DNA of 64,000 nucleotides from Pseudomonas rhizosphaerae (GTDB lineage Bacteria > Pseudomonadota > Gammaproteobacteria > Pseudomonadales > Pseudomonadaceae). Made by a program: the position numbers and the translations under genes. Below are positions 57,366-64,000 of this stretch, in pieces. Every line of letters begins with the position of its first letter. Within the stretch, counting starts at the first letter, position 1. Location of the stretch: positions 1,612,001 through 1,676,000 of the forward strand of contig NZ_CP009533.1 of the NCBI RefSeq assembly GCF_000761155.1. The letters run 5' to 3'. The notes below the pieces were generated by a model. It searched no databases, was not told the origin of the DNA, and was given only the letters and a program-made list of their open reading frames with translations.

Positions 57366-59744
57366 ATGAAATTCAGTGAACAATGGCTGCGTGGCTGGGT
57401 AAGCCCGCAGGCCTCGCGTGACGAGCTGGTAGCGCGTCTGTCGATGGCAGGTCTGGAAGTGGACAGCGTGACCTTGGCCGCAGGCGAGTTCAGCGGTGTG
57501 GTCGTGGGCGAGGTGCTCGCCACCGAGCAGCACCCTGACGCCGACAAATTGCGCGTTTGCCAGGTCAGCGATGGCAGCGAGACTTTTCAGGTGGTCTGTG
57601 GTGCGCCGAACGTGCGTCCCGGCCTGAAGATTCCGTTCGCCAAGATCGGTGCACAGTTGCCCGGTGACTTCAAGATCAAGAAAGCCAAGCTGCGCGGCGT
57701 CGAGTCCAACGGCATGCTGTGCTCGCAGTCCGAGCTGCAGGTCGGTGAAGGCAACGAAGGCCTGATGGAGCTGCCGGCCGATGCACCCACCGGTGAAGAT
57801 TTCCGGGTTTACCTGGGGTTGGACGACGCCAGCATTGAGGTCGACCTGACTCCGAACCGTGGCGACTGCCTGTCCCTGGCTGGTCTTGCCCGGGAAGTGG
57901 GCGCGCTCTACGGTGCACCGGTGACGCGTCCGGTGATCGCTGCCGTTGCACCGGTCAACGACGAAGTCCTTGCGGTAGACGTACTCGCGCCGGCGGCTTG
58001 CCCACGTTTCCTGGGCCGCGTGGTACGCAATGTCGACCTGTCCAAGGCAACTCCGCTGTGGATGGTCGAACGCTTGCGCCGCAGCGAAGTGCGCAGCATC
58101 GATGCCGCCGTGGACATCACCAACTACGTGATGATCGAGCTGGGCCAGCCGATGCACGCCTACGACCTTGCCGAAATCGACGGCGGCATCCGCGTACGCA
58201 TGGCCGAGGAGGGCGAGAAGATCACCCTGCTTGACGGTCAGGAAGTCACCTTGCGCGGCGAGACCCTGGTGATCGCCGACCACGTACGACTGCTGGGTAT
58301 TGCCGGCGTCATGGGTGGCGAGAACAGCGGCGTGACCGCCAAGACCCGCGATGTGTTCCTTGAAGCGGCTTTCTTCGAGCCGATCTCGGTAGCTGGCAAG
58401 GCACGCTCCTATGGGCTGCACACCGATGCCTCCCATCGTTTCGAGCGTGGTGTCGATTCGAACCTGGCACGCGAAGCCATGGAGCGTGCGACTGCGCTGC
58501 TGCTGGAAATCGCCGGCGGTGAGCCCGGCCCGATCATCGAAAGCGTCAGCCAGCAGCATCTGCCGCAGGTCGCGCCGATCACCCTGCGCGCCGAGCGCGT
58601 CAGCCAGATGCTGGGCCTGGAACTGGGCGCCAGCGAGATTCAAACGCTGCTGACCGGCCTTGGTTTGGGCGTGAAGGCCAGCGGGGAAGGGCAGTGGTCG
58701 GTCGAAGTACCCAGCCACCGCTTCGACATCAGCCTTGAAGTCGATCTGATCGAGGAACTGGCTCGGCTTTACGGCTACAACCGTCTACCGGTTCGCTACC
58801 CGCAGGCGCGTTTGGCGCCACAGGCCAGTCCGGAAGCTCGCTCCGACCTGCCCGCCTTGCGCCGTCTGCTGGTCGCACGTGGTTATCAGGAAGCGATCAC
58901 CTACAGCTTCATCGATCCAAAGCTGTTCGAGCTGTTCAGCCCTGGCGTCGAGCCGCTGTTGCTGGCCAACCCGATCTCGGCCGACATGGCGGCAATGCGC
59001 TCGTCGCTGTGGCCGGGCCTGGTCAAGGCCCTGCAACACAACCTCAACCGCCAGCAGGATCGCGTTCGCTTGTTCGAAAGCGGCTTGCGCTTCGTCGGTC
59101 AGTTGGATGGCCTGAAGCAAGAGCCCATGCTGGCTGGCGTGGTGTGCGGCAGCCGCCTGCCCGAAGGCTGGGCACAGGGTCGCGAGACCGTGGATTTCTT
59201 CGACGTCAAAGCCGACGTCGAAGCGGTGCTCGGCTTCGCCGGCGCGCTCGATGCCTTCACCTTCGTTCCCGGCCAGCACCCCGCGTTGCATCCGGGCCAG
59301 ACCGCACGGATCGAACGTGACGGACAGGAAGTAGGGTATCTCGGCGCATTGCACCCGGAACTGGTGAAGTCGCTGGGTCTGGATCGCACCGTGTTCGTCT
59401 TCGAGCTGGTGCTGGCCGAAGTATCCGAAGGTCGTCTGCCGAAATTCCAAGAGCTGTCGCGTTTCCCTGAAGTGCGTCGTGACCTGGCCTTGCTGGCCGA
59501 TCGTGATGTGGCTTCGAGCTCAGTGTTGGCGGTAATTCGAGAGAATGCAGGCGAATGGCTCACGGACCTCAGGCTGTTTGACGTCTACCAGGGTAAAGGC
59601 ATTGATCCTCATAGAAAAAGCCTGGCTGTTGGCTTGACCTGGCAGCATCCATCGCGCACTCTTAACGACGATGAGGTGAATACCACGACACAAGCCATCC
59701 TCACCTCGCTCGAACAAAGGTTGAACGCCACGTTAAGGAAGTAG
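57366..59744 (+). CDS. pheT: Phenylalanyl-tRNA synthetase beta subunit
   Basis: 792 residues. Domains in order: EMAP-like tRNA-binding (VCGAPNVRPGLKIPFAKIGA), B3/B4 editing, B5 (LTPNRGDCLSLAGLAREVGA precedes it), the catalytic-like core, and C-terminal FDX-ACB (LSRFPEVRRDLALLADRDV). ATTCAGGAGAGCAGG lies upstream of the ATG. Forms the alpha2-beta2 enzyme with PheS. Confidence 0.98.
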   Translation: MKFSEQWLRGWVSPQASRDELVARLSMAGLEVDSVTLAAGEFSGVVVGEVLATEQHPDADKLRVCQVSDGSETFQVVCGAPNVRPGLKIPFAKIGAQLPGDFKIKKAKLRGVESNGMLCSQSELQVGEGNEGLMELPADAPTGEDFRVYLGLDDASIEVDLTPNRGDCLSLAGLAREVGALYGAPVTRPVIAAVAPVNDEVLAVDVLAPAACPRFLGRVVRNVDLSKATPLWMVERLRRSEVRSIDAAVDITNYVMIELGQPMHAYDLAEIDGGIRVRMAEEGEKITLLDGQEVTLRGETLVIADHVRLLGIAGVMGGENSGVTAKTRDVFLEAAFFEPISVAGKARSYGLHTDASHRFERGVDSNLAREAMERATALLLEIAGGEPGPIIESVSQQHLPQVAPITLRAERVSQMLGLELGASEIQTLLTGLGLGVKASGEGQWSVEVPSHRFDISLEVDLIEELARLYGYNRLPVRYPQARLAPQASPEARSDLPALRRLLVARGYQEAITYSFIDPKLFELFSPGVEPLLLANPISADMAAMRSSLWPGLVKALQHNLNRQQDRVRLFESGLRFVGQLDGLKQEPMLAGVVCGSRLPEGWAQGRETVDFFDVKADVEAVLGFAGALDAFTFVPGQHPALHPGQTARIERDGQEVGYLGALHPELVKSLGLDRTVFVFELVLAEVSEGRLPKFQELSRFPEVRRDLALLADRDVASSSVLAVIRENAGEWLTDLRLFDVYQGKGIDPHRKSLAVGLTWQHPSRTLNDDEVNTTTQAILTSLEQRLNATLRK

Positions 59745-59747
59745 CGC

Positions 59748-60050
59748 ATGGGGGCTTTGACGAAAGCTGAAATGGCGGAACGTCTTTATGAAGAGTTGGG
59801 CCTGAACAAGCGAGAGGCCAAGGAATTGGTCGAGCTGTTCTTCGAAGAAATCAGGCACGCTCTTGAAGACAACGAGCAGGTCAAATTGTCGGGTTTCGGC
59901 AATTTCGACCTTCGGGACAAACGCCAGCGGCCTGGCCGCAATCCGAAAACCGGTGAAGAAATCCCGATCACGGCTCGCCGCGTGGTCACCTTTCGTCCAG
60001 GGCAGAAACTGAAAGCCCGAGTTGAGGCCTATGCTGGAACCAAGTCATAA
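59748..60050 (+). CDS. ihfA: Integration host factor alpha subunit
   Basis: 100 residues. [40 protein letters not shown] and [20 protein letters not shown] include the beta-arm with the intercalating Pro ([10 protein letters not shown]). Starts 3 nt after pheT and is partly expressed from the same transcript, as in E. coli. Confidence 0.98.
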
Positions 60051-60387
60051 CGACGAACTTCCGCCCATTCCCGGCAAGCGCTACTTCACCATCGGTGAAG
60101 TCAGCGACTTGTGTGCCGTCAAGCCTCACGTGCTGCGGTACTGGGAGCAGGAATTTCCTCAGCTCAACCCCGTGAAGCGTCGCGGAAACCGTCGGTATTA
60201 CCAGCGCCAGGACGTGCTGATGATCCGCCAGATCCGCGCGCTGCTGTATGACCAGGGTTTCACCATCGGCGGTGCGCGTCTGCGTCTGTCCGGTGACGAA
60301 GCCAAGGATGACACCACGCAGTACAAGCAATTGATTCGCCAGACCATCTCCGAGCTCGAAGATGTGTTGAGTGTCCTCAAGAAGTGA
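60031..60387 (+). CDS. MerR-family regulator (IhfA-linked type)
   Basis: 118 residues. The winged helix [20 protein letters not shown] through [20 protein letters not shown] is followed by a coiled coil ending in [16 protein letters not shown] 60031 overlaps the end of ihfA by 20 nt in another frame. Genes of this type follow ihfA in many gammaproteobacteria; the role is not established. Confidence 0.92.
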
Positions 60388-60476
60388 ATTTCTGGAAAAA
60401 AATACTTCCATAATTCAAATGCTTAAGGTATATTTCTCGACGTTCTCAGAGGTTCTGGAACAGCTTTACGCTCGGT

Positions 60477-60553
60477 CGGGGCGTAGCGCAGCCCGGTAGC
60501 GCACTTGCATGGGGTGCAAGGGGTCGAGTGTTCGAATCACTCCGTCCCGACCA
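60477..60553 (+). tRNA. tRNA-Pro (anticodon GGG)
   Basis: 77 nt with encoded CCA. The acceptor stem CGGGGCG pairs with CGTCCCG (one G:U), the anticodon stem is CTTGC/GCAAG with loop ATGGGGT, so the anticodon is GGG, reading CCC. The T arm GAGTG-TTCGAAT-CACTC is perfect. Its 3' 40 nt are part of the 47-bp repeat found again at 62180. Confidence 0.96.
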
Positions 60554-60560
60554 TTTATTC
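60514..60560. repeat. attL-like site: 47-bp direct repeat, copy 1 (3' end of tRNA-Pro)
   Basis: Begins GTGCAAGGGGTCGAGTG and ends CCATTTATTC. Identical over all 47 bases to 62180-62226. It covers the 3' half of the tRNA from the anticodon stem plus 7 nt of flank, the usual form of a tyrosine-integrase target. Confidence 0.9.
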
Positions 60561-60569
60561 TAATGACTT

Positions 60570-60597
60570 AGCCCAATCTTCACAGGTTGGGCTTTTT
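60570..60597 (+). terminator. Terminator downstream of tRNA-Pro
   Basis: AGCCCAA (60570-60576) pairs with TTGGGCT (60587-60593), then TTTTT. It lies inside the island side of attL. A different terminator lies after attR, consistent with replacement of the original tRNA flank. Confidence 0.8.
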
Positions 60598-60825
60598 CAT
60601 GCGTGGGGACTTTTTCGGGACATCATCCGATTTTCCCGTCAAGACCAGCCCGCGCAAGTCGGTCGCCGATGGATCGGGCTGGTAGTTATGTGTCATCTCC
60701 TCGTCAGTATGGCAAGCGATCCTCTGCCCTCCCTCTCTGAAGCGCTTTTAGACGCGCAGACCGATTGCTTCAAGGCCTGGCGTTGATATATGTGTGGGGT
60801 ACATGCAACGCTGGGGGAAATTCGA

Positions 60826-61245
60826 TCACCTTAGCTTTGTCAGCAGCGCAGGTATCACTGGGTGATATTTTTGAGGTCCCAAATACTGCTGCGCCATCCA
60901 CCACGCAGCACCGAGCGCTGATGCTACAACCGTCGCCAAACCTAGGAGAGCCAGGAACGTTAGTCGTCCTTTTGTCACCATGTGATTTTCGATGTTAGCA
61001 AGTCGATTCTCTACGGCTTGCGACGACAGCTTGAGCGCTACGATATCGCCAGCAACGCCTTTAACATCGACCTTGATCGAGGAAATGTCACTGCGCACGT
61101 ATTCCATATGACTTTCAAGCTTTGCAACTCTAGGTTCCACGTTATTGCCTCCGCTGGGTGGACCTCCGCCGCCCCGCTTGGGTTGGTCCCGGTCCGTGTC
61201 ATGGAGTTTATACTCGTCCTTCATCCAGCTGATGTTATCACTCAT
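60826..61245 (-). CDS. Coiled-coil protein with C-terminal membrane anchor
   Basis: 139 residues from ATG 61245 (MSDNISWMKDEYKLHDTD), or 146 from 61266. A Gly/Pro-rich stretch (KRGGGGPPSGGNN) is followed by a long heptad-like helix (EPRVAKLESHMEYVRSDISS then KVDVKGVAGDIVALKLSSQA) and one membrane segment (LTFLALLGLATVVASALGAA). This layout recalls small phage-encoded XhlA-like or spanin-like membrane proteins, but I recognise no family. It overlaps the preceding small gene by 8 nt. Confidence 0.7.
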   Translation of the reverse strand: MSDNISWMKDEYKLHDTDRDQPKRGGGGPPSGGNNVEPRVAKLESHMEYVRSDISSIKVDVKGVAGDIVALKLSSQAVENRLANIENHMVTKGRLTFLALLGLATVVASALGAAWWMAQQYLGPQKYHPVIPALLTKLR

Positions 61246-61444
61246 CGGTTGGATCTCCGGACACATTCCACGGATAGCGGCCGTCGTAGATCCTGCCCGT
61301 ACGGGAGTCTATCTGCTCAAGGGCGTCAAAAACCTCTCGGAATTTATTCCAAGCGCTATCTGCCCTTTCCTTGGCCTCGCCTTCCAGCGGCATTGCTTTC
61401 ATAGCAAGTAGCATATCGAGCGTAACTGAGGTCAAAACACCCAC
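61238..61444 (-). CDS. Small island protein of unknown function
   Basis: 68 residues from GTG 61444 (MGVLTSVTLDMLLAMKAM), ending in RIYDGRYPWNVSGDPTDE. Helical, amphipathic, Ala/Glu/Lys-rich in the middle. The frame is open without a start back to about 61519, and an upstream 26-codon ORF lies in the neighbouring frame, so this may be the 3' part of a gene broken or shifted by one base. Overlap with the next gene indicates translational coupling. Confidence 0.5.
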   Translation of the reverse strand: MGVLTSVTLDMLLAMKAMPLEGEAKERADSAWNKFREVFDALEQIDSRTGRIYDGRYPWNVSGDPTDE

Positions 61445-61473
61445 TGCAGATCTTAGGGGGCCGATTACCTGTG

Positions 61474-61554
61474 TCAGCGCAGAGTATCCACCGGGCCATC
61501 CAAAAATTTGCTCACGTGTTCAGGAAGGCTGTCAGGCCCTTTTTCATCTGCCAT
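61474..61554 (-). CDS. 26-codon ORF, possible 5' part of the preceding island gene
   Basis: MADEKGPDSLPEHVSKFLDG followed by six residues and TGA, with TAGGAG 7 nt before the ATG. It ends 30 nt before the GTG of the next gene. Moving one base back near 61480-61519 would join it to a frame reading TQVIGPLRSAVGVLTSVTLD. A single protein of about 95 residues would result. Confidence 0.4.
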   Translation of the reverse strand: MADEKGPDSLPEHVSKFLDGPVDTLR

Positions 61555-61892
61555 ATGAGGCTCCTAGCCAAAAAAATGAATGTCACTCTTTTTTGCATTC
61601 CATCTCGTCAGAGCCGCGCCTGTTAACGGCCGCGTCATCGATGAGCACCGTTCTATTTGCGGTCATCGGGACACCAGTAGCTCACTCCACACGCATAGCA
61701 CGCGCGCGAAAAATGTCTCTGCCCTCTACCTTCACTGCCATGGCCGAATGCATGACGCTGTCAGCTACTCTCTTCAGATATCCTTCCCAATGGCATGCGG
61801 TCCCTCCGCGTTCTAGAGCGTTCCAGGGCATCTATGTGTGATCTTAGCACTGCCCAGGACCGCGCTCACATCGACAATTCGGCCGGCGAGGT

Positions 61893-62179
61893 CTAAAAGT
61901 GTCGCAAGTTAATTGGGGAGGATGATGTTCGGTGATCGAATCGATGATCCAAGCACTGCGGTAGCTGGCAGCCCAGCTTTCTGAGCTTTTCTACAAGCCA
62001 AGGCCGCTTGTTGCGACCGCCTGCAATAGCTCGTAGCTTTAGTCGCTCAGCGTCATGGCGCTCACTGGCCAAGATTTGAATGCGGTCCACTTCTGCTGGC
62101 GAAACACAGAGAAAACCATCTTCGTCGCCAACGATCAGAGCACTTGGTTCGATCACCATGCCGTTAATAGCAATTGGTA
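61893..62179 (-). pseudogene. RraA-family gene fragment, 5' end cut at the att repeat
   Basis: The minus-strand frame reads LPIAINGMVIEPSALIVGDE then DGFLCVSPAEVDRIQIL and on to a stop, about 95 residues. The pattern P-I-x-I-x-G-x-V-x-P-x-x-LIVGDEDG is the C-terminal part of RraA/HMG-aldolase-like proteins, which carry about 120 more residues upstream. Those are missing: sequence similarity stops exactly where the 47-bp tRNA repeat begins. Reading further upstream gives only the antisense of the tRNA end ([10 protein letters not shown]). Confidence 0.7.
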
Positions 62180-62226
62180 GTGCAAGGGGTCGAGTGTTCG
62201 AATCACTCCGTCCCGACCATTTATTC
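62180..62226. repeat. attR-like site: 47-bp direct repeat, copy 2
   Basis: Identical to 60514-60560. The tRNA half it contains is not a full tRNA gene. Bases on both sides diverge at once (A versus G before; C versus T after), which sets the repeat boundaries. Confidence 0.9.
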
Positions 62227-62246
62227 CTAAGTGAAATCGGACAGTT

Positions 62247-62273
62247 AAGCCACTTCTCATAAGTGGCTTTTTT
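62247..62273 (+). terminator. Intrinsic terminator just after attR
   Basis: 9-bp perfect stem AAGCCACTT / AAGTGGCTT with loop CTCAT and a T6 run. It is probably the original terminator of the tRNA-Pro gene, displaced by the insertion. Confidence 0.8.
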
Positions 62274-62340
62274 GAGCCCGCGCAAAACTATCTGGTGATT
62301 TCTCTGATATCCAAGTCAGCGTCAACCTCTGACCAGACCG

Positions 62341-62370
62341 GCCCAGCCCAGCCCAGCCCAGCCCAGCCCA
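62341..62370. repeat. (GCCCA)6 simple-sequence repeat
   Basis: Six exact tandem copies of GCCCA, followed by a partial GCCCC, 16 nt beyond the stop of the minus-strand hydrolase gene. Confidence 0.9.
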
Positions 62371-62385
62371 GCCCCCCAGACATCC

Positions 62386-63249
62386 TCAAAACCTGTTCAC
62401 CGGAATCTTCAAGCTGCACAACCCGCTCTCATCCGCAGGTGGCAGGTTTCCGGCCCGGATATTCACCTGTAGTGCCGGCAGCAACAGCGCAGGGACCGAC
62501 AGGCTGACATCCCGAGTGGTGCGCATGCGCACGAACGACGCCAGATCCGAAGCATCACTGACGTGAATGTTCTTCTCGCGCTGCTCGGCGACAGTGCTTA
62601 TCCAACACGCTTCCCTACCAGCGGGAGGGTAGTCATGACACATGTACAGTCGGGTGTGCGAGGGCAGGTTCAGTAGCCGCTTGATCGATCCATACATCTG
62701 CTCGGCATCCCCGCCTGGAAAATCGCACCGGGCGGTGCCAACGTCTGGCATGAACAGCGTATCGCCGACGAAGACATGTAAGTCGTCGACCAGATAGGCG
62801 ATGTCTGCCGGCGTGTGTCCAGGTACATGCAGAACTTTCACCGGGATCGCGCCGATGTGAAACGCCTCGTCCGCGTCGAACAGTCTGTCGAACTGCGAAC
62901 CATCGGGCAGGAAACTGGGTTCGAGGTTGTAGATGTCGCGAAACACCTTCTGTACCGCTGTGATCTGCGCACCGATGCCGATCTGGCCGCCGAGTTTGTC
63001 CCTGAGGTAGGCGCTGGCGGACAGGTGGTCCGCATGCGCGTGGGTTTCCAGTAACCACTGCACCTGTAGCCGGTGCTCATTCACGAACGCGATGATACGG
63101 TCTGCACTATCGGTGTGGATGCGTCCGGCTTTGGCATCGTAGTCCAGCACGGGATCCACGATCGCGCAGGGGCCTCCCGAGGCCTCGAAAATGACATAGC
63201 TCACGGTTGCCGTGGCGGTGTCGTAGAAGCCTTCAATCTGCGCGGTCAT
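62386..63249 (-). CDS. MBL-fold hydrolase, ETHE1/Blh-like (persulfide dioxygenase type)
   Basis: 287 residues. Metallo-beta-lactamase metal ligands: ETHAHADHLSAS, LHVPGHTPADIAYL, GDTLFMPDVGTARCDFPGG, and MCHDYPP. The DFPGGDAEQMYGSI segment places it with ETHE1/Blh enzymes, which oxidise glutathione persulfide to sulfite, rather than with glyoxalase II. It diverges from a BigR-like sulfide-responsive regulator, which fits this role. Rhodanese fusion is absent. Confidence 0.88.
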   Translation of the reverse strand: MTAQIEGFYDTATATVSYVIFEASGGPCAIVDPVLDYDAKAGRIHTDSADRIIAFVNEHRLQVQWLLETHAHADHLSASAYLRDKLGGQIGIGAQITAVQKVFRDIYNLEPSFLPDGSQFDRLFDADEAFHIGAIPVKVLHVPGHTPADIAYLVDDLHVFVGDTLFMPDVGTARCDFPGGDAEQMYGSIKRLLNLPSHTRLYMCHDYPPAGREACWISTVAEQREKNIHVSDASDLASFVRMRTTRDVSLSVPALLLPALQVNIRAGNLPPADESGLCSLKIPVNRF

Positions 63250-63279
63250 TGCCAGCCCCCTTGCTTAACGTCATTACAC

Positions 63280-63295
63280 TATATTGAAAGATATA
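63280..63295. promoter_or_regulatory. AT-rich palindrome between hydrolase and ArsR gene
   Basis: TATAT-N6-ATATA within a longer imperfect dyad ACTATATTGAAAGATATACTAT (described by positions 63278-63299). BigR/SqrR regulators bind AT-rich dyads of this kind over their own promoter and that of blh. Confidence 0.6.
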
Positions 63296-63339
63296 CTATC
63301 CAATCGTAGACTGTCGATCTTCCACTGTCGGGGCTTGCC

Positions 63340-63669
63340 ATGTCTGCTCAATTGTCCGCCGAGGAAATCGGTCTGCTGCGCGATTCAGCCGCCAAGGCGT
63401 GTGCCCTGCTGAAAGCGCTGGCCAACGAAGACCGTCTGTTGCTGCTGTGCCAATTGACCCAAGGCGAGCGCAACGTGGGCGAGCTGGAGGCATTGTCCGG
63501 GATCAGGCAGCCGACGTTGTCTCAGCAGTTGGGCGTCCTGCGTGAGGAGGGCATGGTCAACACCCGCAGAATGGGTAAGTACATCTACTACTCGCTGGCC
63601 AGTTTCGAAGTGGTCTCTCTGATGCAGACGCTATCGGGCCTGTACTGCGGCCAGGCGCTCAAGAAGTAA
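63340..63669 (+). CDS. ArsR-family repressor, BigR/SqrR-like
   Basis: 109 residues with the ArsR winged helix (LKALANEDRLLLLCQLTQGE, then LEALSGIRQPTLSQQLGVLR). Cys at 21, 37 and 103. C37 and C103 are 66 apart, the spacing I recall for the redox pair C42 and C108 of BigR, which forms a disulfide or tetrasulfide with reactive sulfur and then releases DNA. Expected to repress the divergent hydrolase and the downstream DUF442 gene. Confidence 0.87.
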   Translation: MSAQLSAEEIGLLRDSAAKACALLKALANEDRLLLLCQLTQGERNVGELEALSGIRQPTLSQQLGVLREEGMVNTRRMGKYIYYSLASFEVVSLMQTLSGLYCGQALKK

Positions 63670-63710
63670 GCCTCAGCACTATCACACAGCGTACATGCCT
63701 GGAGTTTGCA

Positions 63711-64000
63711 ATGGAGCAAGTGGTAAAGCGTATAGACGCAGGGTTCTCGGTGGCTGGCCAGCTCGATCCGGGCAATTTGTCTGAAGTGCGGGCCATGAGC
63801 TTCGCCAGCGTGATCTGCAACCGTCCGGATCATGAGGGTGGAGTGGATCAACCCGATCATCTGGCGATGGAGCGAGCGGCTATCGCGGTAGGGCTGGAGT
63901 TCCGCTACCTGCCTGTAGCGAGCGCGGGTGCCACGGCTGCGCAGGGGCAAGCGCTGAAGGCGCTTCTGGAGCAACTGCCCGCGCCTGTCCTTGCCTACTG
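63711..64000 (+). CDS. DUF442/TIGR01244 phosphatase-like protein (3' end outside window)
   Basis: 96 codons visible. VKRIDAGFSVAGQLDPGNLS, SFASVICNRPDHEGG, then VGLEFRYLPVASAGATAAQG and LLEQLPAPVLAY match the start of DUF442 proteins, a dual-specificity-phosphatase-like domain. The window ends just before the expected catalytic C-x5-R loop. In other bacteria this domain is fused to the N-terminus of Blh; here it is a separate gene 41 nt after the ArsR gene. Confidence 0.85.
   Translation, partial: MEQVVKRIDAGFSVAGQLDPGNLSEVRAMSFASVICNRPDHEGGVDQPDHLAMERAAIAVGLEFRYLPVASAGATAAQGQALKALLEQLPAPVLAY

Follow-up and report, generated by a model that had tools for sequence, protein, structure and literature searches.

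The closest described systems come from Pseudomonas fluorescens Pf-5 and P. aeruginosa. Prophage 05 of Pf-5 is a 2.6-kb defective prophage in tRNA-Cys, with a GC content of 55.3%, 84-bp repeats and a truncated integrase (PMC2647930). Prophage 04 of the same strain is also defective, spans 13.5 kb and holds an integrase, tail genes, a repressor and a bacteriocin gene (PMC2647930). The PAGI-97A group consists of islands at tRNA-Pro(ggg) of P. aeruginosa, found in 41 strains among 226 complete genomes, delimited at a distance of 21-103 kb from the tRNA by a perfect repeat of 49 bp, with a P4-type integrase at the 3' border (PMC8373256). No paper titled on the locus described here was found in the one open literature library that was searched.

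Our locus lies in a 64,000-nt stretch of the Pseudomonas rhizosphaerae genome, referred to here as the window. It had been described from the sequence as a 1.67-kb island in tRNA-Pro(GGG). We consider it very likely that the 1.67 kb is a dead, mostly deleted remnant of at least two tyrosine-integrase elements inserted at the 3' half of this tRNA gene. The source elements were most likely temperate phages or phage-like islands. The features of the locus are listed below, with "type I" and "type II" denoting two kinds of element end.

60477..60553, plus strand: tRNA-Pro(GGG), intact, the insertion target (ARAGORN; Rfam RF00005, 57.6 bits)
60514..60560, plus strand: repeat copy 1 (attL core), consisting of the tRNA's 3' half and the next 7 nt
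60561..60667, no strand assigned: left end of a type I element, comprising a terminator (60570-60593) and, on the minus strand, the final codons of a type I integrase
60673..60774, minus strand: C-terminal relic of a type II (L105-like) tyrosine integrase with one internal stop (tblastn E 6e-5; also blastn)
60826..61266, minus strand: 146-codon ORF, a prophage gene found beside repressors (phrog_6136, E 2.7e-21)
61238..61444, minus strand: 68-codon ORF, no family match, a weak call
61965..62180, minus strand: C-terminal fragment of a gene of the RraA family, truncated at the border with repeat copy 2 (best amino acid identity 54%, in G094)
62180..62226, plus strand: repeat copy 2 (attR core), its left side 5-11 nt shorter than in 22 of 24 other non-tRNA copies
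62227..62345, no strand assigned: left end of a type II element, with a terminator (62247-62269) and the last type II integrase codons (62294-62338, minus strand)
62333..62374, plus strand: 8.4 copies of CCAGC at the junction of type II scar and chromosome
62386..63249, minus strand: gene for a metallo-beta-lactamase-fold protein (named by inspection), chromosomal flank, adjoining the tRNA in G249

ARAGORN found one tRNA gene in the whole window, the tRNA-Pro(GGG) at 60477-60553 on the plus strand. Its 3' half plus 7 nt makes up the unit of a direct repeat whose two copies (60514-60560 and 62180-62226) are identical at 47 of 47 nt and spaced 1666 bp apart. The exact repeat that the original prediction had described was therefore borne out at 100% identity. 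The runner-up direct repeat in 58000-64000 is 28 nt long with 79% identity, and the perfect 47-nt match is far beyond chance. Two further claims, that each repeat is followed by its own terminator and that the interval is low in GC, also held. A strong hairpin with a T run stands 3' of copy 1 (60570-60593, z -5.6) and of copy 2 (62247-62269, z -4.5), the latter being missed by a separate pattern scan. The GC content of the enclosed interval is 53.0%, compared to 62.2% for the window.

Copies of the repeat were surveyed with a 34-nt core, allowing at most 2 mismatches, in 17 genomes: our own, the 11 best matches to the right flank and five others matching the interior. The core was found at 42 places, tRNAs included, and 36 of the 42 were exact. 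Twelve of the 17 genomes held 2-6 copies and the other five held a single copy. tRNA-Pro(GGG) is thus an integration hotspot.

An empty site, as looked for in relatives, was found in G249. This genome is 91% identical to the window over 3351 bp ending with the repeat, of which it has a single 47-bp copy, followed directly by the terminator trailer that starts at 62227 in the window. The window's downstream gene lies 86 bp past the core and is 83% identical over 1292 bp. The G249 site may itself be a scar, since its trailer resembles a type II end. The comparison of loci covered genomes of other species. G043, which is as close as G249, also has one copy with the 62227-type trailer. At the G043 locus (L094, G043:C1:1146001-1166000), 15.6 kb separate the tRNA-Pro trailer from the conserved downstream gene. 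This stretch carries metabolic genes, among them molybdenum-hydroxylase-like, AraC-like and oxidoreductase genes (named by inspection), and no second tRNA repeat was found in it. In 11 of the remaining 14 genomes the downstream gene lies elsewhere or on another contig, and G018, G091 and G094 have no listed place for it. The empty site in G249, together with the integrases found beside the repeat in relatives, supports the earlier claim of site-specific integration at tRNA-Pro.

At least two kinds of element end occur at tRNA-Pro(GGG), each with a terminator and a tyrosine integrase gene reading toward the tRNA. Type I ends were sought by comparing 60561-62179 with 398 genomes of the genus, our own included, with two candidates scored per genome. 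Matches were obtained in 144 of the 398. Among the matches listed, all fell in the first 40-110 nt or in the RraA piece, save for those in G191 (60875-61142) and G075 (60674-60737). The trailer AATGACTTAG, with at most 2 substitutions, follows the repeat core in 29 of the 29 best other type I loci (here and for type II, the 29 loci were chosen as the best matches, not at random, and extend over no more than about 1.5 kb). In 21 of them a type I integrase was matched downstream, many at full length, with the best match covering only 19-40 residues in three of the 21; the other 8 showed none. The type I integrase is about 392 aa long with a PF00589 domain (L095), and proteins of 392-394 aa stand behind such ends in L095, L097 and L100.

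For type II, 62215-62350 was compared with the 398 genus genomes and matched in 78. A type II integrase match was found at 19 of the 29 best other loci. Among the 10 without one are G249 and G043, where the similarity is limited to the trailer. The type II integrase is L105-like, about 371 aa long, and has PF00589 and a lambda-type arm-binding domain.

A given trailer does not always go with the same integrase type. In L131, fragments of both integrases follow a single repeat, and L137, L147, L149 and L150 carry type II-like DNA behind another trailer. Additional trailers also occur, such as that in L106. Seven loci (L125, L129, L130, L138, L143, L146 and L148) have type II ends with no downstream integrase match at all, and such terminator scars recur at tRNA-Pro(GGG). 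The sequence immediately left of the repeat is almost the same in L008, L013, L083, L084 and L090. A third element type may have its right end here. In L105, L008, L013 and L083, which were checked for a third type of integrase running into the repeat from the left, no stop-to-stop frame of more than 200 codons was found covering the start of the core.

Pieces of both kinds of end are present in the window. Next to the tRNA, 60561-60667 can be aligned to the type I ends of relatives if a gap of 10 nt is allowed, and matches at 91% over 75 nt in G112 and 79% over 110 nt in G293. The coding tail is not significant on its own (tblastn E 2.8), and the call rests on the DNA alignment. The relic at 60673-60774 has 76% DNA identity to L105 over 59 nt (blastn). 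Against eight type II loci it gave 69-76% over 51-64 nt in six and matches of only 17-18 nt in two. The reading frame continues across the junction of type I and type II DNA near 60670. We also considered that 60561-60670 is native chromosome, as it follows intact tRNAs in many genomes. This was rejected in favor of an element end because an integrase follows in 21 of the 29 loci and because the empty site has a different trailer. The statement that the island has no integrase is correct only in that no intact one is present, as there is a broken tail at 60673-60774 and last codons at about 62294-62338, outside the right repeat. Since only broken integrase tails are found, the 1.67-kb interval is a remnant and not a working element.

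The genes of the interior are in keeping with a prophage remnant, since phage-derived genes are broken or truncated and there is no complete phage gene set in the 1.67 kb. By inspection, the 146-codon ORF encodes a coiled coil and a membrane segment. It has 16 homologous proteins, and the 13 rows that were aligned share 29 invariant columns. One relative, P0001, is 99% identical over 90% of the query. Compared with P0001, the ORF has lost its frame near the C-terminus, and the intact end of P0001 means that a copy with an intact end exists. P0001 comprises 5 member sequences on 8 contigs. These contigs may contain the element from which the remnant derives, or the remnant itself as present in other strains. 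As a single sequence the ORF gave no locus in the genome contigs searched; its family alignment gave three loci. In L107 (P. juntendi) and L108 (P. aylmerensis) a homologue stands just after a CI-like repressor, named by inspection, and G191 has one in its type II locus, about 9 kb from the repeat. No locus for P0001 was found in viral contigs, and none in plasmids. Four phage records, two of which belong to a single phage, cover 46% of P0001 with identities of 46-54%. The matching region of phage YMC11/07/P54 is found three genes past an annotated repressor.

Inspection of the frames suggests that the 68-codon ORF is probably part of a broken gene. The RraA piece extends to the first base of copy 2 of the repeat. 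The relatives closest to it are 44-54% identical and belong to long open frames, most of which have 225-290 codons; L002, L152 and L153 were inspected. The piece also matched 59 plasmid records, all at less than 60% identity. The DNA of the interior had no match in plasmids or phages. The 6 ORFs scanned gave only weak matches (E >0.02) to PHROGs of named function, and their Pfam matches were likewise weak and below the cut-offs.

The right edge was compared with 24 other non-tRNA copies of the core (at most 3 substitutions, distinct by the left 40 nt, with copies cut by contig ends dropped). To the left of GGGGTCGAG, copy 2 of the window shares 6 nt with the tRNA. In 22 of the 24 other copies this identity is 11-17 nt; it is 8 nt in L083 and 0 in L017, where the zero value reflects a shift of one base. 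The shorter identity suggests that copy 2 probably lost sequence in the same deletion that placed the RraA piece next to it. A lambda-type integrase needs an inner arm. With copy 2 trimmed, this arm would be lost, which argues against mobility.

The flank beyond copy 2, earlier taken for untouched chromosome, resembles the worn end of a second element. The tail at 62294-62338 gave a tblastn E of 0.058 on its own, so its assignment rests on the DNA matches. The CCAGC repeats may mark a deletion or its repair, because the alignment with G249 has a gap there.

What was observed directly is the repeat, an empty site in a relative, the hotspot and, within the window, remains of two distinct element ends. 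From these we infer the stacking of elements and the order of the deletions. A type I element would have lain next to the tRNA, with one or more type II elements on its right side. One deletion would have fused two integrase tails, type I to type II, with the loss of most genes in between. A second would have joined an RraA gene, either cargo or captured, to the inside of the right repeat and trimmed the repeat. A third would have removed the right-hand type II element up to its last integrase codons. The terminators survived and are available to the tRNA. Several points count against this account. The integrase relics are short, the pairing of trailer and integrase type is loose, and the G249 site may be a scar too. 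In addition, neither repeat has yet diverged, as would rather be expected after a recent insertion; the counterweight is the share of exact core places in the 17-genome survey (36 of 42, tRNAs included).

Another possible explanation is a single phage or island whose integrase region was a hybrid and which carried an RraA gene of its own; it would have shrunk by internal deletions, with no stacking within the repeats. Phages swap modules, the frame runs through the type I/type II junction, and a hybrid is possible because the pairing of trailer and integrase is loose in L137, L147, L149 and L150; L131, with both types after one repeat, also fits. We nevertheless regard this explanation as unlikely. 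No type II integrase match was found near the trailer in the 29 type I loci, so a type I end directly before a type II integrase would be an uncommon arrangement, and the right flank resembles the end of a second element in any case.

Less probable still is a small non-autonomous element, moved through both repeats by an integrase encoded elsewhere, as the original prediction had proposed as one of two readings. The perfect 47-bp repeats and a recognizable left end up to 60667 would suit such an element, and elements with a suitable integrase are common in relatives. However, the 1.67-kb unit has only one place in its own genome (a single contig of 4.685 Mb). No full copy was found in the 397 other genomes of the genus, with two candidates scored per genome, or in 143 other genomes (144 relatives with our own, from 49 genera, an overlapping draw). 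The genome has 10 matches to PF00589, 9 of them over the cut-off, and none of the 10 is similar to either of the two local integrase types (tblastn E 1e-3). Furthermore, at least one interior gene is out of frame, the inner right arm is a piece of RraA, and the boundary between RraA and the repeat (22 nt, exact) was absent from the viral contigs searched. The mobilized element was therefore not upheld, with no second copy, no fitting integrase and RraA sequence as its inner right arm. The other reading, the leftover of a larger island, is supported by the integrase relics, the out-of-frame prophage gene and the gene piece fused to a shortened repeat.

It is also conceivable, if quite doubtful, that the 1.67-kb remnant is kept because it is useful. 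Its ends would serve as terminators for the tRNA, and its perfect repeats as a landing or capture site for an incoming type I or type II phage, which could pick up or excise the 1.67 kb. The scars at tRNA-Pro would then be a reusable cassette and not debris. That copy 2 is a duplicated tRNA fragment unrelated to integration can practically be dismissed, as no point in its support was found, the same 3' half recurs beside integrases across the genus, and an empty site exists in G249.

A dead remnant of stacked elements makes the locus most likely an ordinary, known kind of genomic scar and not a new mobile element. The appearance of an island without an integrase can mislead, whereas a comparison of the ends of the elements brings out two families of integrase with a common tRNA site. 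The scars consist of a terminator and an integrase tail, and they allow past traffic at a hotspot to be read after the elements are gone.

Among the described systems, the PAGI-97A group uses the same tRNA, has a similar perfect repeat (49 bp compared to 47 bp) and is likewise recurrent at its site (PMC8373256). In that group, however, the integrase is at the border away from the tRNA (PMC8373256), whereas type I and type II ends have theirs beside the tRNA-proximal repeat. In the window, relics are found next to the repeat copy at the tRNA and beyond the right-hand copy, which is not the PAGI-97A placement. Prophage 04 of Pf-5 is likewise defective and has its integrase gene next to a tRNA-Pro gene; it differs in its 13.5-kb size and in the genes that it carries (PMC2647930). 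Prophage 05 is closer, being a remnant of a few kb with a broken integrase and direct repeats at a tRNA gene (PMC2647930). It differs in its target, tRNA-Cys, and its description, as far as available from that source, mentions no integrase pieces of two types (PMC2647930). The locus in the window is of the same kind as the 2.6-kb remnant in tRNA-Cys of Pf-5.
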